From positions 1-35,843 of the forward strand of contig NZ_JAFSNZ010000037.1 of the NCBI RefSeq assembly GCF_017447225.1: DNA of 35,843 nucleotides, in the 5' to 3' direction. The position numbers were made by a program, and so were the translations under genes. Positions 5,916-27,163 of this stretch are shown one piece after another. Source of the DNA: Methanobrevibacter sp. (GTDB lineage: Archaea > Methanobacteriota > Methanobacteria > Methanobacteriales > Methanobacteriaceae). Under the pieces are notes generated by a model. That model was given only the letters and a program-made list of their open reading frames with translations. It was not told the DNA's origin and did no database searches. How positions within the stretch are numbered: position 1 is the first letter of the stretch; every line of letters begins with the position of its first letter.

Positions 5916-6242
5916 ATGAAAAATGTTGGAGCAAGAATGGAAACTCTCAGAGAAAATATGAATTTGACTCCTCAAGCATTATCTTCATATTTGGACATTC
6001 CAACTGAAGATTTGCTTGACATGGAAAATGGCAACAAGAATATTACTTTATCCATTTTAAACAAGCTATGCTCATTATTCGGATGCAGTGAAAGTTATCT
6101 ACTTTGCAGGAGTGAAGAATTTGATTATACAAAATTTGCATTTAGAAGTAGTAGTATTGAAGTAGCTGACCTTGAAGGTATAGCAAGCATGAATAGAATA
6201 TACATGAATATGAAATACCTAACAAGCAAAATGGATGATTAG
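5916..6242 (+). CDS. XRE-family helix-turn-helix protein
   Basis: 108-aa DNA-binding protein. Residues 5-65 form a Cro/C1-type HTH: RMETLRENMNLTP, then SSYLDIPTEDLLDMENG, then NKLCSLFGCSESYLL. The C-terminal 40 residues have no recognisable fold. The start is supported by GGTGAT 5 nt before ATG and a TATA box near 5865. Its stop codon overlaps the next gene's ATG by 8 nt, so it is co-translated with the ImmA/IrrE protease gene. In XRE-ImmA/IrrE pairs the protease often cleaves the repressor, so this is probably the autoregulator or antitoxin-like part of the cassette (inference). Confidence 0.85.
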   Translation: MKNVGARMETLRENMNLTPQALSSYLDIPTEDLLDMENGNKNITLSILNKLCSLFGCSESYLLCRSEEFDYTKFAFRSSSIEVADLEGIASMNRIYMNMKYLTSKMDD

Positions 6243-6990
6243 TTTGAAAACAGATAACCAGTTAAATGCCGAAGCCATTAAATTAAGAGAAAAATGGGGT
6301 TTGAATCCTTATGGGTCTGTTGATATTACATCAGTGGTTTTATCAAAACTCCCAAACTTAACCTTATTGTACATGCCATTTTCCAAAAACACAAGTGGGA
6401 TGTGCATTAAAGATGAAAATATCGAAATAATTGGGATTAACTCAACAATGACTAAAGGAAGACAAAGATTCACATTGGCTCATGAATTGTATCACTTGTT
6501 AATTGAGGAAAATTCCGGAAAACCTATTGTCTGCAACTATCTTTTAAGAGATGACTCTGAAAGAGAAGCAGATAAGTTCGCTTCATATCTATTAATGACT
6601 GAGGAAGGTCTCAGCCAATACTGTGAAATGAACCATATTAATGAATGGAATTTGGGTAACATTATTTCTGTTGAACAATATTTCCAGATTAGCCATCGTG
6701 CATTATTGACTCGCCTTTTGAACAATGGATTAATTTCTGAAAATGAATATGATGAATATGAATGTAAATATATATCTGATGAAGCGAAAATCAGGGGATA
6801 TAGTGATGAATTATACCGATCATCCCCTAAAGAAGACCAATACATGACCCTTGGAAAATACATTAATACAATTGAATACTTAGATGAAATAGGTAAAATA
6901 AGTCAAAGTAAGAAAAAAGAGCTCCTTCTTGATGGCTATAGGGGAGATCTTGTATTTAATGTGGATAAGGGTGATGATATCAATGACTAA
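6235..6990 (+). CDS. ImmA/IrrE-family zinc metallopeptidase (COG2856/DUF955)
   Basis: 251 aa. The metallopeptidase motif is FTLAHELYHLL, giving ligands H83 and H87, catalytic E84, and a third ligand probably E111 in READKFASYLL. This is the classic ImmA/IrrE layout. Family members cleave XRE-type repressors (ImmA of ICEBs1, IrrE/PprI of Deinococcus). It overlaps the XRE gene by 8 nt and the PIN gene by 8 nt, so all three are one translationally coupled unit. The C-terminal 100 residues, rich in charged helices, have no family I recognise and could sense a signal or bind the PIN partner. Confidence 0.88.
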   Translation: MISLKTDNQLNAEAIKLREKWGLNPYGSVDITSVVLSKLPNLTLLYMPFSKNTSGMCIKDENIEIIGINSTMTKGRQRFTLAHELYHLLIEENSGKPIVCNYLLRDDSEREADKFASYLLMTEEGLSQYCEMNHINEWNLGNIISVEQYFQISHRALLTRLLNNGLISENEYDEYECKYISDEAKIRGYSDELYRSSPKEDQYMTLGKYINTIEYLDEIGKISQSKKKELLLDGYRGDLVFNVDKGDDIND

Positions 6991-7522
6991 ACCTATTTTT
7001 TATGATACTGATTGTTTATCGTCATTTTTGCAGATAAATAGAATAGATTTACTAAAAAAGGAATATTCAAAAATCATCATCTCAGATAAAGTTAAGAGTG
7101 AATTATATAATAAAAACACTCCGGATAAAGTTAAAAAAAGGTTAACATTATTAATTCAGGAAGGATATGTTGAAATTAAAGACTTGGAACTTGGCAGTGA
7201 AGAATTTGATCAATATTATGAATTTATAACTGATGATAAAACTGAAGATATTGGTAAAGGAGAATTAAGTATTATTTCACTTGCAATAACTAAAAATGGA
7301 ATACTTGCAAGCAATAACTTGGATGATGTGTGTTATTTTGTAAAAAAATACAATCTGGAACATGTTACAACATCCAAAATAATAGTAACATGTTATGAAA
7401 AAGGATATTTGACTTTTGATGAAGCAGATAATATATGGAAAAAATTATTAAAAAATCCAAAGCATCCACAGATGTCTTTTAAAGATTTTTATAATAAAGA
7501 TGATAAGATGTGTTATAATTGA
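6983..7522 (+). CDS. PIN-domain-like protein (putative ribonuclease toxin)
   Basis: 179 aa from the ATG at 6983, which is preceded by GGTGAT and overlaps the ImmA/IrrE stop by 8 nt; longer in-frame starts would sit inside that gene. PIN-like acidic residues appear in the expected order: FYDTD (D8/D10) in the first strand, E40 in SDKVKSEL, E94 in GKGELS, and D114/D115 in SNNLDD. PIN proteins are Mg-dependent RNases and common VapC-type toxins. No VapB-type antitoxin is present. Instead the partners are XRE and a protease, so toxicity may be controlled through repressor cleavage (inference). Confidence 0.75.
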   Translation: MTKPIFYDTDCLSSFLQINRIDLLKKEYSKIIISDKVKSELYNKNTPDKVKKRLTLLIQEGYVEIKDLELGSEEFDQYYEFITDDKTEDIGKGELSIISLAITKNGILASNNLDDVCYFVKKYNLEHVTTSKIIVTCYEKGYLTFDEADNIWKKLLKNPKHPQMSFKDFYNKDDKMCYN

Positions 7523-8523: not shown

Positions 8524-8585
8524 AGTACTTTATTTACTTTATCTTTTCAAAAAATCAAAACTAAAAAATTAATATGGTGAATGTA

Positions 8586-9161
8586 ATGCGTATTAAAGAT
8601 ATGGCGAAAGATAAAATTATTATTCAAAAACAAAATGGAAAAATATATGAATGTGATAATGCAGACATACAGAAAACTAAAGCATTCATATTCTGTGGAG
8701 AAATACCTTTAGAAGAATATGATATCATTATTCATAAAATTAGAGAAGGTTATGAAAGAGAATATGTTGTTACAAATGTGGGTTACTATGAAAAAACATT
8801 TGGACCTCATTATCAAGCAGATATTGAATCAAAAAAAGTTTTTGATAACAAACAAAACGAAACATTAATTAATGATATAAATGTCAATGCAAATAATTCT
8901 AAAGTAAATATAAATTCCATAGATAATTCTATAAACTTTATTCAAATACCTTTTGATGAAATATATGAAAAATTAGAGGAAATTGAAGATGAAACTGTTA
9001 GATATGAATCAATAAAATGCTTAAAAGAACTTGAAGAATCTAATGATGGTGAAACCTATAAAAACAAATATGTGGAATTTATTGGTATTCTTTCAGATCA
9101 TATGACTATTATTGCGCCATTCATACCTATATTAACAATTGCATTATCAAATTGCTTATGA
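8586..9161 (+). CDS. Unknown protein paired with the TIR gene, C-terminal hydrophobic segment
   Basis: 191 aa from the ATG at 8586, preceded by GGTGA. The N-terminal half (about 1-85) is mixed alpha/beta with basic and acidic patches. Around residues 100-120 is an Asn-rich beta segment, VNANNSKVNINSIDNS. The C-terminal half is helical (FDEIYEKLEEIEDE..., KCLKELEESN) and closes with DHMTIIAPFIPILTIAL, a probable membrane or oligomer helix. I recall the combination SKVNINSxDNS plus DHxTIIAPFIP from many bacterial accessory proteins, some associated with TRADD-N-like domains, but cannot confirm this here. It lies 71 nt before the TIR gene, suggesting a sensor or scaffold for that effector (inference). 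Confidence 0.6.
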   Translation: MRIKDMAKDKIIIQKQNGKIYECDNADIQKTKAFIFCGEIPLEEYDIIIHKIREGYEREYVVTNVGYYEKTFGPHYQADIESKKVFDNKQNETLINDINVNANNSKVNINSIDNSINFIQIPFDEIYEKLEEIEDETVRYESIKCLKELEESNDGETYKNKYVEFIGILSDHMTIIAPFIPILTIALSNCL

Positions 9162-9232
9162 GAAATTTATAAGCTTGAAATGATAAATTATGATTATATA
9201 AATAGATTTGCAAATTGGGGAGGGTATTTTTA

Positions 9233-10600
9233 ATGGAAGAACTTTTTACAGAAAAAATTGATGAGTTTATCCATCATAATCTTTTAGAAATTCAAAAAAA
9301 GATTAATGCTGAAGATTGTTTGATAATATTGAATAATGATGATGAATACATTAATTCATTAATTAAATCCTATTATTCAAATAATATTGAAGTTGATTTT
9401 GATAAAATTGATTACACTAAAAAAACAGATAAAAAATATGATTATTATGGGAATCCTATAAAGTTAAATAGATATTCATTTAAAGTTCCTTATAAAGGAG
9501 ATTCGCATCTATTGAATTATCGCCCTAAAAAAGGCCTATATAGGGAAAAAACTTATTTTTCAAGGGATAATTATATTTATTTTGAATCACTTAATTTTGA
9601 TATTAATCATCCCAATCCGAAATTTTATAATAGTATAGAAACGTTGAAAAGTATAATTGATAATCTTACTAAAGAGTATTCCTATTGGAATGATTCTTTA
9701 AAAGAATATATTGAGAATAATGTAAATTATAGGAAAAATATTCTTTTAAACTTTAAAAAATTTTGTAAAAAATATGGGTTATCTGAAAAGGAGATTATGG
9801 AAATGGGATTTAAGTTAGCTGCATTAGAAACATTGTCTAAAATTATTGCGGATACATATCCTGGATCTGATATAACTGTGTTATTTAAAAAATCAGGTTT
9901 TCCTGAAATTGTTTATACTGGGGATACAAAATGGAAATTCCTTTGTGAAACATTTGAAATAATGCAAGAAGAATGTATTGAAGGATTTTATAAAATTTTA
10001 AAAGTTATAGAAGTTGTTTGTGACCCTCAAGAATATTTATTAAATCCAGAACTTCATAAAGAAATTCTTGAAAAAATTAATATGATATTGGTTTTTTATG
10101 GATTTAAATTTAATGAGGAAGGAATATTATTAAAATTGGATACAATTAACAATAAATTCAAAAAATCAATTAATAAAAATAGTAATCATGGTGAAGATCA
10201 TTATGATGTTTTTATTTCTCATTCCTCAACGGATAAACCTTGGGTTGATGAACTCAATGAATGTTTATCTAAAACTGATTTAAAAATATGGTATGATGCA
10301 TCAATACTAAAAATTGGAGATAATATTCGTAAAAAAATAAATCAAGGTTTGATCAATTCGGACTATGGAATTATTGTTTTATCGAAAGAGTTTATCAATA
10401 GATCTTGGACAAATTTTGAATTTGATTCATTATATCCATTAATTGCTGAAGAAAAGTTATTACCAATTAATCATGGATTAAGTAGTGATGATTTAGCCCA
10501 ATTTTTCAAACCATTATTGAACACTCAGTATATGGATTCTGATAAATATACTATAAAAGAAATCTGTGATGAAATTTATTCTAAAATTAGATGTCCATAA
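9233..10600 (+). CDS. TIR-domain protein, putative NADase effector
   Basis: 455 aa, start chosen because GGGAGG precedes the ATG at 9233. Residues 324-455 are a TIR domain: YDVFISHSSTDKPWVDEL (strand A and BB-loop region), KIWYDASILKIGDNI, then YGIIVLSKEFINRSW followed by NFEFD with the likely catalytic glutamate E396. Bacterial and archaeal TIR domains of this kind degrade NAD+ or make cyclic ADP-ribose signals in antiphage systems. Residues 1-320 are an N-terminal region I do not recognise. It includes VPYKGDSHLLNYRP near 80 and a helical module before TIR with NPELHKEILEKIN...VFYGFKFNEEG, a pattern seen ahead of effector domains in abortive-infection proteins (recollection). Very AT-rich. 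Confidence 0.82.
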   Translation: MEELFTEKIDEFIHHNLLEIQKKINAEDCLIILNNDDEYINSLIKSYYSNNIEVDFDKIDYTKKTDKKYDYYGNPIKLNRYSFKVPYKGDSHLLNYRPKKGLYREKTYFSRDNYIYFESLNFDINHPNPKFYNSIETLKSIIDNLTKEYSYWNDSLKEYIENNVNYRKNILLNFKKFCKKYGLSEKEIMEMGFKLAALETLSKIIADTYPGSDITVLFKKSGFPEIVYTGDTKWKFLCETFEIMQEECIEGFYKILKVIEVVCDPQEYLLNPELHKEILEKINMILVFYGFKFNEEGILLKLDTINNKFKKSINKNSNHGEDHYDVFISHSSTDKPWVDELNECLSKTDLKIWYDASILKIGDNIRKKINQGLINSDYGIIVLSKEFINRSWTNFEFDSLYPLIAEEKLLPINHGLSSDDLAQFFKPLLNTQYMDSDKYTIKEICDEIYSKIRCP

Positions 10601-14926: not shown

Positions 14927-15163
14927 TTATTTTTCAGTCAATCTATCTAATTTTTCTAAAAAATATTTAAATGACTTGTTTCTTTCAATTGCAAGGTTAA
15001 AATCAAAATTTTTTGCAATTTCAATTGGAGCATCTTTTTTAGAATCAAAAATATCTTTAATCATTTTATCAAATATTTCTTTGGTGATGTCTTCTGTATT
15101 GTCTGGAATGTTCAAATTTCTAAACTCAGTTTGTGAAGTGCCGATAAAAAACTCACAATTCAT
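14927..15163 (-). CDS. 78-aa protein coupled to the ATPase, possibly a truncated nuclease partner
   Basis: The ATG at 15163 overlaps the end of the ATPase gene by 11 nt, so it is translationally coupled; upstream in-frame starts lie deeper in that gene. The protein begins MNCEFFIGTSQTEFRNLN and ends with KSFKYFLEKLDRLTEK. OLD-like ATPases of this type are usually followed by a TOPRIM or DUF4276-type nuclease of 150-250 aa, and the end of this protein resembles the tail of such proteins. The acidic TOPRIM motifs are absent, so it may be a remnant or a separate small partner. This is an inference from context. Confidence 0.5.
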   Translation of the reverse strand: MNCEFFIGTSQTEFRNLNIPDNTEDITKEIFDKMIKDIFDSKKDAPIEIAKNFDFNLAIERNKSFKYFLEKLDRLTEK

Positions 15164-16382
15164 TTCCAAACTCCAAATAATCATCAACAAAGATTTGTCC
15201 AATTCCTAACTCATCAACGAATACTTTAATTTCTTCATTATTGATTGGTTTAGATATTTTTGAAAATCCATTACTGTCTCTTGAAATTAGATGAATGTCT
15301 TCTAAGTCACAGTAGTTTAATATTTCGGGACTGTGTGTTGTTATTATTACTTGTTTATTTTGTGAAACTTCTTTCATCATTCCTACGAGCTGAATGAATA
15401 ATGCAGGATGTATATTTCTCTCAGGTTCTTCAATCAATATGATATCTCCTGATTCAAAATATAATGCGCTTATAAGTGCGAGAATATTCATCGTTCCGTC
15501 TGAAATAAATGGGGATAAAACTGGGGATTTCGTATATTTTTCAGATAATCTAAACATTCGACGATTATCTTCAAGGCTGAAAACATCAATTTTCTCAATG
15601 TATGGAAGTAAAATTGAAACAAGGTTTAGATATTTTCTTTGCTTTTCATGGTCATTTAAGATGTTTTCTAAAACTACTGGCAGATTTTGGCCTGATTCAC
15701 TTAATTTTACCTTACCATTCCCATCATCTAATCGACAGAATTTTGGGTCAAAATCATAATAGTTTATTGATTTAAAATAATTGGTCCAGGATATTGGAAT
15801 GGCAGATAATGGAGTGTTAATGATTAATTCATGTTTTTCAGATAAATTGTCATTAACAATGTTTAATAATGATTTAGGAACAAAATACTCCAAGTCAACG
15901 TATTTCTCTTCCCGCTCGAAACTGGCGGTAATATGGCAATTTTTATTGACTAAAAGCAATGAATTTTCATAAATCTTTTCATCATCCCTGCAAATGTTAA
16001 AATTAAACTTAACGCTTTCATTAATCAGTTCCTGTGAATTATCCTTAAAATTAATACATAATTCATATTCAATAGCATTATATCGTATTTTAAAATCCAA
16101 ATCAGGATTTGCTCTGGTTATAAATGAATCATCACTTCCCAATATTACTTTTATGCATGAGGGGGTGTATGATTCTAGATTGAGATTTTGGAAAAATGGT
16201 CCTCCATGTGTATTTATTCCTTTTTCAAAATCGTCACTAACATCTTTTAAAAACTGAAAAGCTTCGACAAAATTTGATTTACCTGATGCTTGTGCTCCAA
16301 CAATAACATTAAAATCATTTAAATCAACATTTGCATTTTCAAAACTTTTAAAATTTTTTATTTCAATTCTTTGGATATGCAT
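15153..16382 (-). CDS. OLD-like AAA ATPase (SMC/ABC-type head)
   Basis: 409 aa from the ATG at 16382; an ATG four codons upstream is also possible. The N-terminus IQRIEIKNFKSFENANVDL is typical of RecF/OLD-type ATPases. Walker A is GAQASGKS at 29-36, the signature-like ISDGTMN is at 293-299, Walker B is IILIEEPERNIHP with E318/E319, and the switch histidine is H350 in TTHSPEIL. There is no C-terminal TOPRIM domain, unlike full OLD proteins. The protein probably drives a separate effector, and the overlapping 78-aa gene is the only candidate here. Such ATPases are frequent in anti-phage or retron/Gabija/AbiE-like contexts; the specific system is not assigned. Confidence 0.82.
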   Translation of the reverse strand: MHIQRIEIKNFKSFENANVDLNDFNVIVGAQASGKSNFVEAFQFLKDVSDDFEKGINTHGGPFFQNLNLESYTPSCIKVILGSDDSFITRANPDLDFKIRYNAIEYELCINFKDNSQELINESVKFNFNICRDDEKIYENSLLLVNKNCHITASFEREEKYVDLEYFVPKSLLNIVNDNLSEKHELIINTPLSAIPISWTNYFKSINYYDFDPKFCRLDDGNGKVKLSESGQNLPVVLENILNDHEKQRKYLNLVSILLPYIEKIDVFSLEDNRRMFRLSEKYTKSPVLSPFISDGTMNILALISALYFESGDIILIEEPERNIHPALFIQLVGMMKEVSQNKQVIITTHSPEILNYCDLEDIHLISRDSNGFSKISKPINNEEIKVFVDELGIGQIFVDDYLEFGNEL

Positions 16383-16692
16383 AATACTCAACATTTATTA
16401 ATATTTCAAGCAATTTAACAAACTCGTTCAAATATTGCCTTAAAGAAGTAAAATTAGCTAATAAAACTTATTTCAAATCTTTGTAATTTGAGGTGGTGTT
16501 GTTAAAAATGGCTTAATAATTATTATGCTTGTTGAACTATTTAAATCATACTTAATATCATTCAAAATATTGTTCAGCCCACAAAATCCAAAGCCATTTA
16601 CATAATTTTATAAGTGTTCAAAATAAAAATAGTATTATTGATTGACTAAGTTTTTACTTTTTCAATTTTTTAAAACCAAGAGGTTATATTTC
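16383..16692. other. Intergenic region upstream of PEP synthase
   Basis: About 310 nt. It contains AAATGGCTT (16506-16514), the exact reverse complement of AAGCCATTT (16591-16599), and a TATA-like TAATTTTATAA near 16602-16612, 80-90 nt before the ppsA start. That spacing implies a leader of roughly 55-65 nt. GAGGTG near 16490 is followed only by a very short ORF. No gene is supported. Confidence 0.4.
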
Positions 16693-25276: not shown

Positions 25277-25663
25277 CTATTCTGCAAAGACTTCGTCGTA
25301 TTCGACATCCATGCCGATGCTTGTGTAGAAGTTATACATCATTTCATTTTCCGTCGGTGCATATGGACATTCTTCAAGAAATTTGGCAAATTCAATTACT
25401 TCGGGATCGTTTGTTCCTTTAATGCTTTTGTAGACTTCAGTTTCACTGTTTTCCATGTTTGTGAATTTCGGTTCTGTCGTTTCGCTGTCATCAAAGATTT
25501 CACTATATTCAACATCCATGCCTTCGCTTTTGTAGAAGTTATACATTATGTCCTTTGCTGTTGGGGTGTATGGACATCTTTCGAAAGCTCGGGCAAATCT
25601 GTGTACATTGGGATTGGTTATTATTTTTCTACAATGATAAATAGTGGTTTTTCTATTATTCAT
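25277..25663 (-). CDS. Hypothetical protein with an internal duplication
   Basis: 128 aa made of two related halves. Residues 17-60 and 86-128 share the pattern [ND]P-V--FA---E-CPY-PT---MYNFY-S-GMDVEY-E-F. Each half has one cysteine in a CPYxPT motif. No signal peptide or membrane helix; the protein is acidic. The start is supported by GGAG 7 nt upstream and overlaps the stop of the JAMM-like gene by 8 nt, so the two are co-translated. It may bind or inhibit the upstream-encoded enzyme (inference only). No family is recognised. Confidence 0.65.
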   Translation of the reverse strand: MNNRKTTIYHCRKIITNPNVHRFARAFERCPYTPTAKDIMYNFYKSEGMDVEYSEIFDDSETTEPKFTNMENSETEVYKSIKGTNDPEVIEFAKFLEECPYAPTENEMMYNFYTSIGMDVEYDEVFAE

Positions 25664-26312
25664 ATTGATACTCCAGTTTGGTTAATTGTATATCACTTAT
25701 GTTTTCATCATTTATATATTTTAATAATTCATAACCATATCGTAAATCTTGCATCTTATTGAACACACTTCCTTTTTTATAATGATTTATGCAAAATATG
25801 TAGGATACATCAAAAGCAATTTCCGAAGCTCTATTCATGTCTTCAATTAGATGTTCATGCAAACCTTTAGCTTTTAAAATCCAAAAATATTCTAATCCGG
25901 CAATCAGTTCATAATCATCAAAAGCACGTTTTAAAATTCCAAAATTTTTAGCTGATGGTGGAGATAGTATATTTTTTGGGTGATTATGTATTGATGCAAC
26001 AGGGTTATTTTTAAATTCATTTTCATCAAAAGTAACAATAACTTCTTCTGATTTACCTTTTACACATTTAAGAATTTCACCCGTACAATAATCAAAATAT
26101 AAAATCCATTCGTAATCTAATTGTCTAGTTTTTTCAATGAAATCAATGATGAGATTATATGTTTCATCACTAAATTCATCTGGTAAATTTTCTTTTTTAA
26201 TTATTGGGGATTTATTATTTTTTAAAGTTTTATATTCCTTGAAATCCGAACCTATATTCAACATACTAACTACTAAAATACTCAATATTAAAATGATTTT
26301 TTTAATTTTCAT
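25656..26312 (-). CDS. Secreted or membrane-tethered JAB/JAMM-like protein
   Basis: 218 aa. The N-terminus (KIKKIILILSILVVSMLNIG) is a signal peptide or anchor without a lipobox cysteine. Residues about 65-135 resemble a JAB/JAMM metallopeptidase: EWILYFDYCTGEI, then SIHNHPKNILSPPSAKN with H109, H111 and S120. In classic JAMM motifs the last ligand is Asp and the second His to Ser spacing is seven residues; here the spacing is eight and the position is Asn (N123). Metal binding may therefore be altered or lost, or a loop variant is used as in phage-type JAB domains. Overlaps the duplicated-motif gene by 8 nt. Confidence 0.6.
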   Translation of the reverse strand: MKIKKIILILSILVVSMLNIGSDFKEYKTLKNNKSPIIKKENLPDEFSDETYNLIIDFIEKTRQLDYEWILYFDYCTGEILKCVKGKSEEVIVTFDENEFKNNPVASIHNHPKNILSPPSAKNFGILKRAFDDYELIAGLEYFWILKAKGLHEHLIEDMNRASEIAFDVSYIFCINHYKKGSVFNKMQDLRYGYELLKYINDENISDIQLTKLEYQYE

Positions 26313-26366: not shown

Positions 26367-26387
26367 AAATCATTTAATAAATGATTT
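26367..26387. repeat. 21-bp palindrome
   Basis: AAATCATTTA and TAAATGATTT are exact inverted copies around a single A, followed on the plus strand by more T. It lies 55-75 nt upstream of the JAMM-like gene (minus strand), so it could be an operator for that gene or a terminator-like hairpin. Confidence 0.4.
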
Positions 26388-26507
26388 TTTTAGAGCAATT
26401 TGGTGGAGTTAAAGTAATAGTTTGCAATGAAATTATTTTTCACGGCTGATTATAATTTATTTTTTGAGGAAGATATTTTAAAATCAACATTATTTCTAAA
26501 ATATAGA

Positions 26508-26571
26508 AATATTTAAATAGTATGTTTTTCTCAGGACAATTTTTCACGGTCAGAACAATTTTTCACGGTCA
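26508..26571 (+). promoter_or_regulatory. TATA box with two 17-bp direct repeats (candidate operator)
   Basis: ATATTTAAATAG (about 26508-26519) is a good TATA box. ACAATTTTTCACGGTCA occurs exactly twice, at 26536-26552 and 26555-26571, a 19-bp period, covering the expected transcription start. A shortened copy, ATTTTTCACGG, lies upstream at about 26434-26444. This spacing relative to the TATA box is what a repressor operator would show. It controls the micropeptide at 26633. Confidence 0.6.
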
Positions 26572-26632
26572 AATAATCCTTAAATTTAAATATTAGAATG
26601 AATAACATAATTTTGTAGGAGGTGATACTGCT

Positions 26633-26722
26633 ATGGATGATGAAAAAATGAGACTCATTTCAGCAATCCTTATGTTAATCACAGCATTATTGGAATTGCT
26701 GAAATGCATATTATGGGATTAA
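26633..26722 (+). CDS. 29-residue hydrophobic micropeptide
   Basis: The ORF is preceded by GGAGGTGAT, a perfect anti-SD match, 6 nt before ATG. This is one of the strongest ribosome-binding sites in the window. The peptide starts MDDEKMR, continues as one Leu/Ile/Met-rich helix of about 17 residues, and ends KCILWD. That acid-tipped single transmembrane design resembles type I toxin peptides or small membrane regulators. It has its own TATA box and operator-like repeats, and a hairpin overlaps the stop codon. Too short for family assignment, but the expression signals make it convincing. Confidence 0.6.
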   Translation: MDDEKMRLISAILMLITALLELLKCILWD

Positions 26723-26734
26723 TTTCCCATAATA
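26709..26734 (+). terminator. Hairpin overlapping the micropeptide stop codon
   Basis: TATTATGGGA (26709-26718) pairs exactly with TCCCATAATA (26725-26734) around a 6-nt loop. A T-rich stretch follows after about 12 nt. It could end the micropeptide mRNA or protect its 3' end. Confidence 0.5.
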
Positions 26735-26804
26735 ATTACTCATATTTTTCTTGTCTAATAGTATATAATACTTCCTACCATTTAATAAAAAAGAGTTGAT
26801 TATA

Positions 26805-26933
26805 TTGCTAAAATCATTATTAACATTAATTCAAATAATTTTGTGCATTATAATAATATTTTTAGGATATCGAAATAAGGAATATCTAAATATTCTAATT
26901 GGAGTATGTTTGCTGATAATATCATTTATCTAA
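26805..26933 (+). CDS. Possible 42-residue membrane peptide
   Basis: Read from a TTG at 26805, preceded by GTTGAT at 4 nt, the frame gives two hydrophobic helices (about 3-20 and 29-42) joined by a polar turn GYRNKEYLN. An earlier in-frame TTG at 26796 is possible. There is no ATG, so translation is less certain than for the upstream micropeptide. The hydrophobic two-helix pattern is stronger than expected from AT-rich noise, though A/T bias favours Ile/Leu codons. Confidence 0.35.
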   Translation: MLKSLLTLIQIILCIIIIFLGYRNKEYLNILIGVCLLIISFI

Positions 26934-26961
26934 TAAGTACTAGAACACAGATCTTTAATGC

Positions 26962-27007
26962 AGAGATGAATTGCACGACGGGACACGAAATGCAGTTCAT
27001 ATTCTCT
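26962..27007. ncRNA. Stable hairpin between micropeptide ORFs
   Basis: AGAGA plus TGAATTGCA (26962-26975) pairs with TGCAGTTCA plus TCTCT (26991-27007): 14 pairs including one G-U, with a 3-nt bulge and a GC-rich 15-nt loop, CGACGGGACACGAAA. A T-rich stretch follows near 27018-27032. It could be a terminator with an unusually long stem or part of a small RNA. Confidence 0.35.
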
Positions 27008-27085
27008 TCGGACTTATTTTAGTAATTTTTTCAAAGCAATTTCTATGAGTTAAAGTATTCTATAGGTTAATAACTATTGTTTATA

Positions 27086-27163
27086 ATGACTTTAGTTGTG
27101 ATGAGCGGCGAATCAGGTGCTATATGGGTTTTTTATCTGCTATTATCACTAATTTCTAAATAG
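27086..27163 (+). CDS. Possible 25-residue hydrophobic peptide
   Basis: ATG at 27086 (or 27101 in the same frame, overlapping GTGATG) runs to TAG 27161-27163. The peptide is MTLVVMSGESGAIWVFYLLL and five more residues, a single hydrophobic helix after a polar start. There is no strong SD. It is listed because it is the third tiny hydrophobic ORF in this 0.9-kb gap; it could also be chance. Confidence 0.25.
   Translation: MTLVVMSGESGAIWVFYLLLSLISK

Follow-up and report, generated by a model that had tools for sequence, protein, structure and literature searches.

A candidate archaeal unit that resembles type I toxin-antitoxin systems, with a predicted self-locking mRNA, in Methanobrevibacter

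We analysed a stretch of 35,843 nucleotides from Methanobrevibacter sp. (contig NZ_JAFSNZ010000037.1; "the window" below refers to this whole stretch) and observed that it carries a conserved unit in which a promoter is followed by a folded mRNA containing a first small ORF (ORF1), and then by a second small ORF (ORF2). The reading that explains it best, to which we give a probability of roughly 0.6, is an archaeal module that works like the hok/aapA-type type I toxin-antitoxin systems and has a companion membrane peptide. According to this scheme, transcription from the proximal TATA box (TATA2) would yield an mRNA whose 5' end is the Shine-Dalgarno (SD) of a 29-aa membrane peptide, the candidate toxin. 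In the complete segment the SD, the start codon and the codons just after it would be masked by base pairing with the 3' anti-SD and the downstream arm, giving a silent mRNA (as prediction and covariation suggest), and the SD is predicted to open once the 3' end is lost. An antisense RNA from within the 3' part of the mRNA would normally neutralise the opened form (the conserved TATA-like element on the opposite strand points to this). ORF2 may act as a partner with an immunity-like role, or may itself be membrane-active, in the way that yoyJ accompanies yonT. In this scheme we infer the toxicity of ORF1, the antisense RNA, the 3' processing and the role of ORF2. The coordinates of the features are given in the table.

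Table 1. Features of the unit and its immediate surroundings (positions in the window)
Feature	Position	Strand	Remarks
Distal TATA box (TATA1)	26512-26519	+	In most, not all, unit copies
Tandem repeat, two copies at 19-bp spacing	26536-26571	+	Dispersed intergenic repeat, consensus about TCAGAACAATTTTT
Proximal TATA box (TATA2)	26585-26592	+	Likely core promoter; 29-32 nt before the RNA start in nearly all unit copies
Structured mRNA segment	26613-26781	+	36-bp closing helix around two hairpins; from folding and covariation
Shine-Dalgarno GTAGGAGGTGAT of ORF1	26615-26626	+	Paired in the full-length fold
ORF1, 29-aa hydrophobic single-helix peptide MDDEKMRLISAILMLITALLELLKCILWD	26633-26722	+	Candidate toxin
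TATA-like element ATTATATA	26762-26769	-	Candidate promoter; antisense RNA start about 26737-26742
Anti-Shine-Dalgarno ACTTCCTAC	26770-26778	+	Closes the RNA
ORF2, 42-aa two-helix membrane peptide	26805-26933	+	Companion; open in 15/15 copies that reach ORF2
Third ORF, 25-aa	27086-27163		Without homologues

The central feature is the RNA fold. The preliminary description, made from this DNA alone, had correctly placed an SD (GGAGGTGAT, shortly 5' of the ORF1 ATG) and a hairpin over the ORF1 stop, and had missed the long-distance closing helix of 36 bp that hides the SD. In the predicted fold 26615-26652 pairs with 26739-26778, so that the 5' end GTAGGAGGT (the SD of ORF1) is held by the 3' tail ACTTCCTAC, and the helix encloses two inner hairpins, one inside ORF1 (26656-26706) and one over its stop (26709-26734). 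The fold energy was -62.5 kcal/mol (z -7.9), and none of 200 shuffled sequences folded as well. The same fold was obtained for all eleven intact copies (z -5.5 to -10). In the aligned copies the DNA between the ORFs was as strongly conserved as the coding parts, because the RNA folds across this region.

We also compared the pairs between copies. The consensus fold has 57 pairs, with 96.6% of the pair cells kept (39-54% in slid controls), and two-sided changes were seen in 6 pairs (shuffles gave 2.5 +/- 1.1, slid controls 0-3). The alignment thus indicates that the base pairs are maintained through compensatory changes, and this includes the stop hairpin (26709-26718 with 26725-26734), which is conserved in this way. 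Since the pairs are conserved and both ORFs show coding signatures (see below), the locus is under selection as RNA and as protein.

With the SD paired to the anti-SD, the full-length mRNA is predicted to be translationally inert. In silico truncation of the 3' end by 15 nt raised the mean probability that the SD is unpaired from 0.10 to 0.83 in the window copy, and from 0.10-0.38 to 0.77-0.97 across the eleven intact copies. Two relatives behaved differently in these predictions: in the diverged copy L146 the SD stayed closed after truncation, and in L212, from a family in another genus (described below), its accessibility shifted the wrong way.

ORF1, whose single hydrophobic helix was recognised by inspection, showed conservative substitutions in frame 0 only (z 4.2, reached in 0 of 400 column shuffles; z at most 1.3 in the other frames). 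The pN/pS ratio was 0.40 overall and 0.29 in the second half, and these values argue for purifying selection at the protein level. The 29-residue single-helix ORF of the preliminary description is hence both present and coding by this score. Not every copy keeps it, as 7 of 16 encode the canonical 29-aa peptide, 3 have an altered C-terminus, 1 is truncated and 5 are broken or start-less. Frequent loss of ORF1 with retention of ORF2 would be expected if ORF1 is costly; some of the lesions could also be assembly errors in metagenome-derived genomes.

In about half of the copies ORF1 is altered but the fold persists. This is one point against the toxin reading, and the RNA itself could be the product. 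The locus would then encode a structured non-coding RNA, with ORF1 as a passenger or minor product and ORF2 as a linked gene. Three copies with a shifted or truncated ORF1 frame (L122, L146 and L151) keep the structure, and the ends of the RNA coincide with the closing helix and the predicted transcription start, both as such an RNA would have it. The protein-level conservation of ORF1 in a single frame is against it, as are the fixed spacing between SD and start codon and the fact that the tightest pairing lies over the SD, which suggests translational control. We consider a purely non-coding product unlikely.

ORF2, the two-helix ORF of the preliminary description, starts with TTG in the window and with ATG in most relatives. 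Its pN/pS was 0.34, compared with 0.68 and 2.03 in the shifted frames, and 38 of its 39 third positions were variable, so that it too is under protein-level selection. Within this family ORF2 is the more stable of the two ORFs and invariably lies a short distance 3' of the RNA. The RNA might therefore be a cis-regulatory leader, with ORF2 as the real effector, controlled either by the translation of ORF1 or by some signal under which the fold melts; the TATA-like element or read-through could serve ORF2 in that case. However, the SD that is hidden is that of ORF1, the stretch from the RNA to ORF2 falls mostly outside the locked helix when the whole 329-nt segment is folded, and the family in the other genus has a similar fold without ORF2. 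We regard a leader as rather improbable.

Homology of the unit ends just past ORF2. The genus DNA search returned no homologues beyond 26939 other than the exbB promoter from about 27150. A 25-residue ORF and a bulged downstream hairpin had earlier been counted as parts of the locus; because conservation stops just after ORF2 and they have no homologues, both fall outside the unit and were rejected as parts of it.

The type I-like reading also draws on the opposite strand. The octamer ATTATATA or ATTAAATA was found there at one aligned position in 10 of the 11 intact copies, and in these, as well as in L146 and L151, it sits 9-12 nt inside the 3' end of the RNA. The latter two share the exact element TTTATATA at the same position, and in the other-genus family TTTATATA occurs on the opposite strand at the very end of the RNA. 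An exact TATA-like match is expected by chance at about 0.1% of positions in the AT-rich DNA of the window. The sequence upstream of the octamer is purine-rich, because the anti-SD lies there, and the octamer itself overlaps the closing helix. A transcript from this element would start just before the stop hairpin and would be antisense to ORF1. Alternatively, or in addition, the element might act as a sense promoter for ORF2.

On the sense strand, TATA2 lies about 29 nt upstream of the RNA start in the window and 29-32 nt upstream of it in nearly all copies, and is likely the core promoter of the unit. The TATA box that had first been pointed out, TATA1, does exist, but it is absent from several of the aligned copies and is probably not the core promoter, TATA2 being better placed. 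Two exact copies of a 17-bp repeat, ACAATTTTTCACGGTCA, are present as described (26536-26552 and 26555-26571). They had been taken to lie over the start site; since TATA2, and not TATA1, fits the RNA start, they are rather upstream of the likely start.

When we searched the genome for the repeat, as the preliminary description had suggested, the 19-bp-spaced tandem CAATTTTT was found at 11 sites, compared with 0 for the reversed pattern, which exceeds chance in this genome. The sites are at several unrelated intergenic places, and some are inside genes. Among the unit copies the repeats number 2 to 4, are inverted, or are absent. The tandem may be an upstream regulatory site that tunes transcription, but it does not define the unit.

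These repeats bear on another explanation, an operator-regulated pair of membrane peptides (for sensing or stress) with a repressor or activator bound at the 17-bp repeats and the RNA fold as a secondary feature. Most unit copies do have tandem repeats upstream. Their number and orientation vary, though, some copies lack them, they recur at unrelated intergenic sites of the same genome instead of being specific to a promoter and positioned over its start, and it is the RNA fold, unlike the repeats, that is kept throughout the copies. We rejected the operator repeats as the explanation on account of this dispersal and variability, and think such a pair very unlikely. Of the roles proposed in the preliminary description, a type I-like toxin fits well with the SD-hiding fold, the two selected peptides and the opposite-strand TATA, but not by way of operator repeats; a sensor or small regulator is still conceivable. 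The unit is also flanked by two more, diverged copies of the AGCAATTT...GAGTTAAAG repeat, each 33 nt long and 82% alike, at 26384-26416 and 27025-27057.

We next consider the distribution of the unit. When the genus was searched at the DNA level, the same genome proved to have the unit a second time, at C43:7527-7975 (an alignment of 449 nt that spans 26490-26936, 91% identical), and eleven other genomes also had copies (best 74-85% identity). With a covariance model, the RNA was detected in 12 of 67 genomes of the genus and in none of the other families of the phylum sample; the ORF2 profile matched the same 12 genomes. The copies occupy unrelated sites, near argS/uvrA-like genes, adhesins, an MFS transporter, glutamate dehydrogenase or an integrase, and two genomes have the unit at the same place, beside an aspartate-kinase-like gene (gene names by inspection). 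Several copies are decayed, L130 and L132 among them; in L130 (4482-4569) the two inner hairpins and the greater part of ORF1 have been lost, with the anti-SD segment and ORF2 intact.

The patchy presence and the decayed copies would suit a chance arrangement, or a mobile repeat that has no function and whose hairpin is incidental. Against this speak the selection seen at codon level in both ORFs, the compensatory changes and the exact co-occurrence of the RNA with ORF2. It is already contradicted by the tests of selection, covariation and co-occurrence, and we find it hardly credible. An origin from phages, plasmids or viruses was also rejected, as the presence is patchy and chromosomal, with ORF2 absent from phages, the RNA absent from plasmids and neither peptide found in viral contigs.

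More distant matches scored 27-34 bits with the covariance model, the same as the reverse strand of true copies. Because of this, L145, L146 and L151 were assessed by their SD, ORF, fold and opposite-strand TATA and not by this score. The diverged L146 and L151, from the same genus, retain the SD, the fold, the stop hairpin and a following two-helix peptide, and the frame of ORF1 is disrupted in both. Where the ORF1 or ORF2 profile matched other places weakly (E > 0.0005 per genome), we took the matches for noise; a scan of some of them for SD and fold gave nothing beyond L145, L151 and L195 (the last being the place of L146).

In another genus of the same family, three genomes carry a gene for a 28-aa peptide, MGEAISVITCISLVISAIFAILNYMQDK, without ORF2. 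It has an in-ORF hairpin, a stop hairpin and a closing helix, with compensatory differences between copies. This hydrophobic peptide gene with its closed RNA fold (L212-L214, minus strand, about 1524-1681) may represent another family that follows the same design independently, and its relation to the unit could be either homologous or convergent. A merged covariance model across both genera aligned poorly and gave no base pairs, and was left out. More tentatively, and at somewhat short of even odds, we propose that these loci form the first archaeal type I-like toxin-antitoxin family, a micropeptide superfamily of the Methanobacteriaceae with SD/anti-SD self-locking mRNAs under antisense RNA control, one branch of which has a protective two-helix membrane partner.

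The known systems offer several points of comparison. The aapA peptides are about 30 aa long and hydrophobic, like ORF1, while hok, unlike the unit, encodes a longer peptide and is overlapped by the mok frame. The mRNAs of aapA3 and hok are inert at full length, with 5'-3' closure and SD/anti-SD pairing that 3' trimming opens, and are controlled by an antisense RNA (PMC6733600). The unit resembles aapA/IsoA of Helicobacter pylori in a long-distance 5'-3' interaction by which an anti-SD encoded at the 3' end hides the SD, in activation by 3' trimming (a prediction for the unit), in compensatory changes among copies and in having several chromosomal copies (PMC6733600). It differs in its archaeal host and promoters and in its second membrane ORF; we found no sequence similarity, and the antisense RNA and toxicity of the unit are putative. 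With hok/Sok it shares a stable, inert full-length mRNA, a downstream anti-SD that sequesters the SD and a requirement for 3' processing (PMC6733600), all on the side of the unit as predicted; no homology between the two was found.

A second ORF is found in yonT/SR6/yoyJ of the Bacillus subtilis SP-beta prophage. There one polycistronic mRNA carries a toxin ORF and, after it, another small toxin ORF, and the antisense RNA SR6 overlaps the former at its 3' end and the latter at its 5' end (PMC5848175). The order of a toxin-type ORF and then a second small ORF is also that of the candidate toxin ORF1 and ORF2. It is, however, a bacterial prophage system with a 58-aa toxin, and the likeness seen is one of layout. 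We know of no SD-sequestering fold of the unit's kind in yonT.

The cyanobacterial msoT1/msoA1 of Microcystis recently extended type I systems beyond the classical phyla, such systems having been known from three bacterial phyla only before that 2025 paper (PMC12390103). It is bacterial, whereas the unit is archaeal. In the literature that we searched, no report of a type I toxin-antitoxin system in archaea was found. Neither was there a match to a described toxin or RNA family: the RNA had none in Rfam, ORF1 none in Pfam, NCBIfam, PADLOC or PHROGs, and ORF2 none above the curated limits in Pfam, NCBIfam or PADLOC, with only a weak match in PHROGs to a family of unknown function. The best-supported view is that the unit works like a type I toxin-antitoxin system; membership, which calls for toxicity and an antisense RNA, is not claimed. 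An archaeal module with the same mRNA logic, if true, would mean that self-locking toxin mRNAs are convergent or very old. The host group comprises the dominant gut methanogens. Being small, concrete and open to testing, the locus would also allow post-transcriptional control by RNA to be studied in archaea, and it is a candidate on which genetic tools for Methanobrevibacter, or ways of controlling its growth, could be based. Its architecture (an SD at the extreme 5' end, an anti-SD at the 3' end and an opposite-strand TATA beside the anti-SD) can be searched for elsewhere.

In the window the unit lies between rnhB and exbB, in a gap holding about 1.85 kb of extra DNA. These two genes are directly adjacent in nearly all relatives inspected, and among the exbB loci compared the unit is between them here only (none of 62 exbB loci fetched from relatives had it upstream); a functional tie to ExbB/ExbD was rejected on these grounds. 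The exbB of the window is 99% identical to that of Methanobrevibacter sp. RGIG4352 (L043). The same insertion contains genes for a 218-aa lipoprotein-like protein (25656-26312, minus strand), with an IHNHP motif reminiscent of JAMM domains and no Pfam match, and for a 128-aa protein with two similar halves (25277-25663, minus strand); in L043 the 128-aa gene is reduced to a part and the 218-aa gene to its end.

Elsewhere in the window, a trio of XRE-HTH, ImmA/IrrE-like peptidase and PIN-like genes occurs at 5916-7522, and three other copies of the unit (in L120, L121 and L128) have genes like these, the full trio or part of it, within 1-4 kb. Candidate anti-phage defence genes lie at 8574-10600 and 15153-16394: one for a TIR-domain protein (ThsB/PDC-S66-like), next to which a small protein is encoded on the upstream side, and one for an OLD/HEC-01A-like AAA ATPase.
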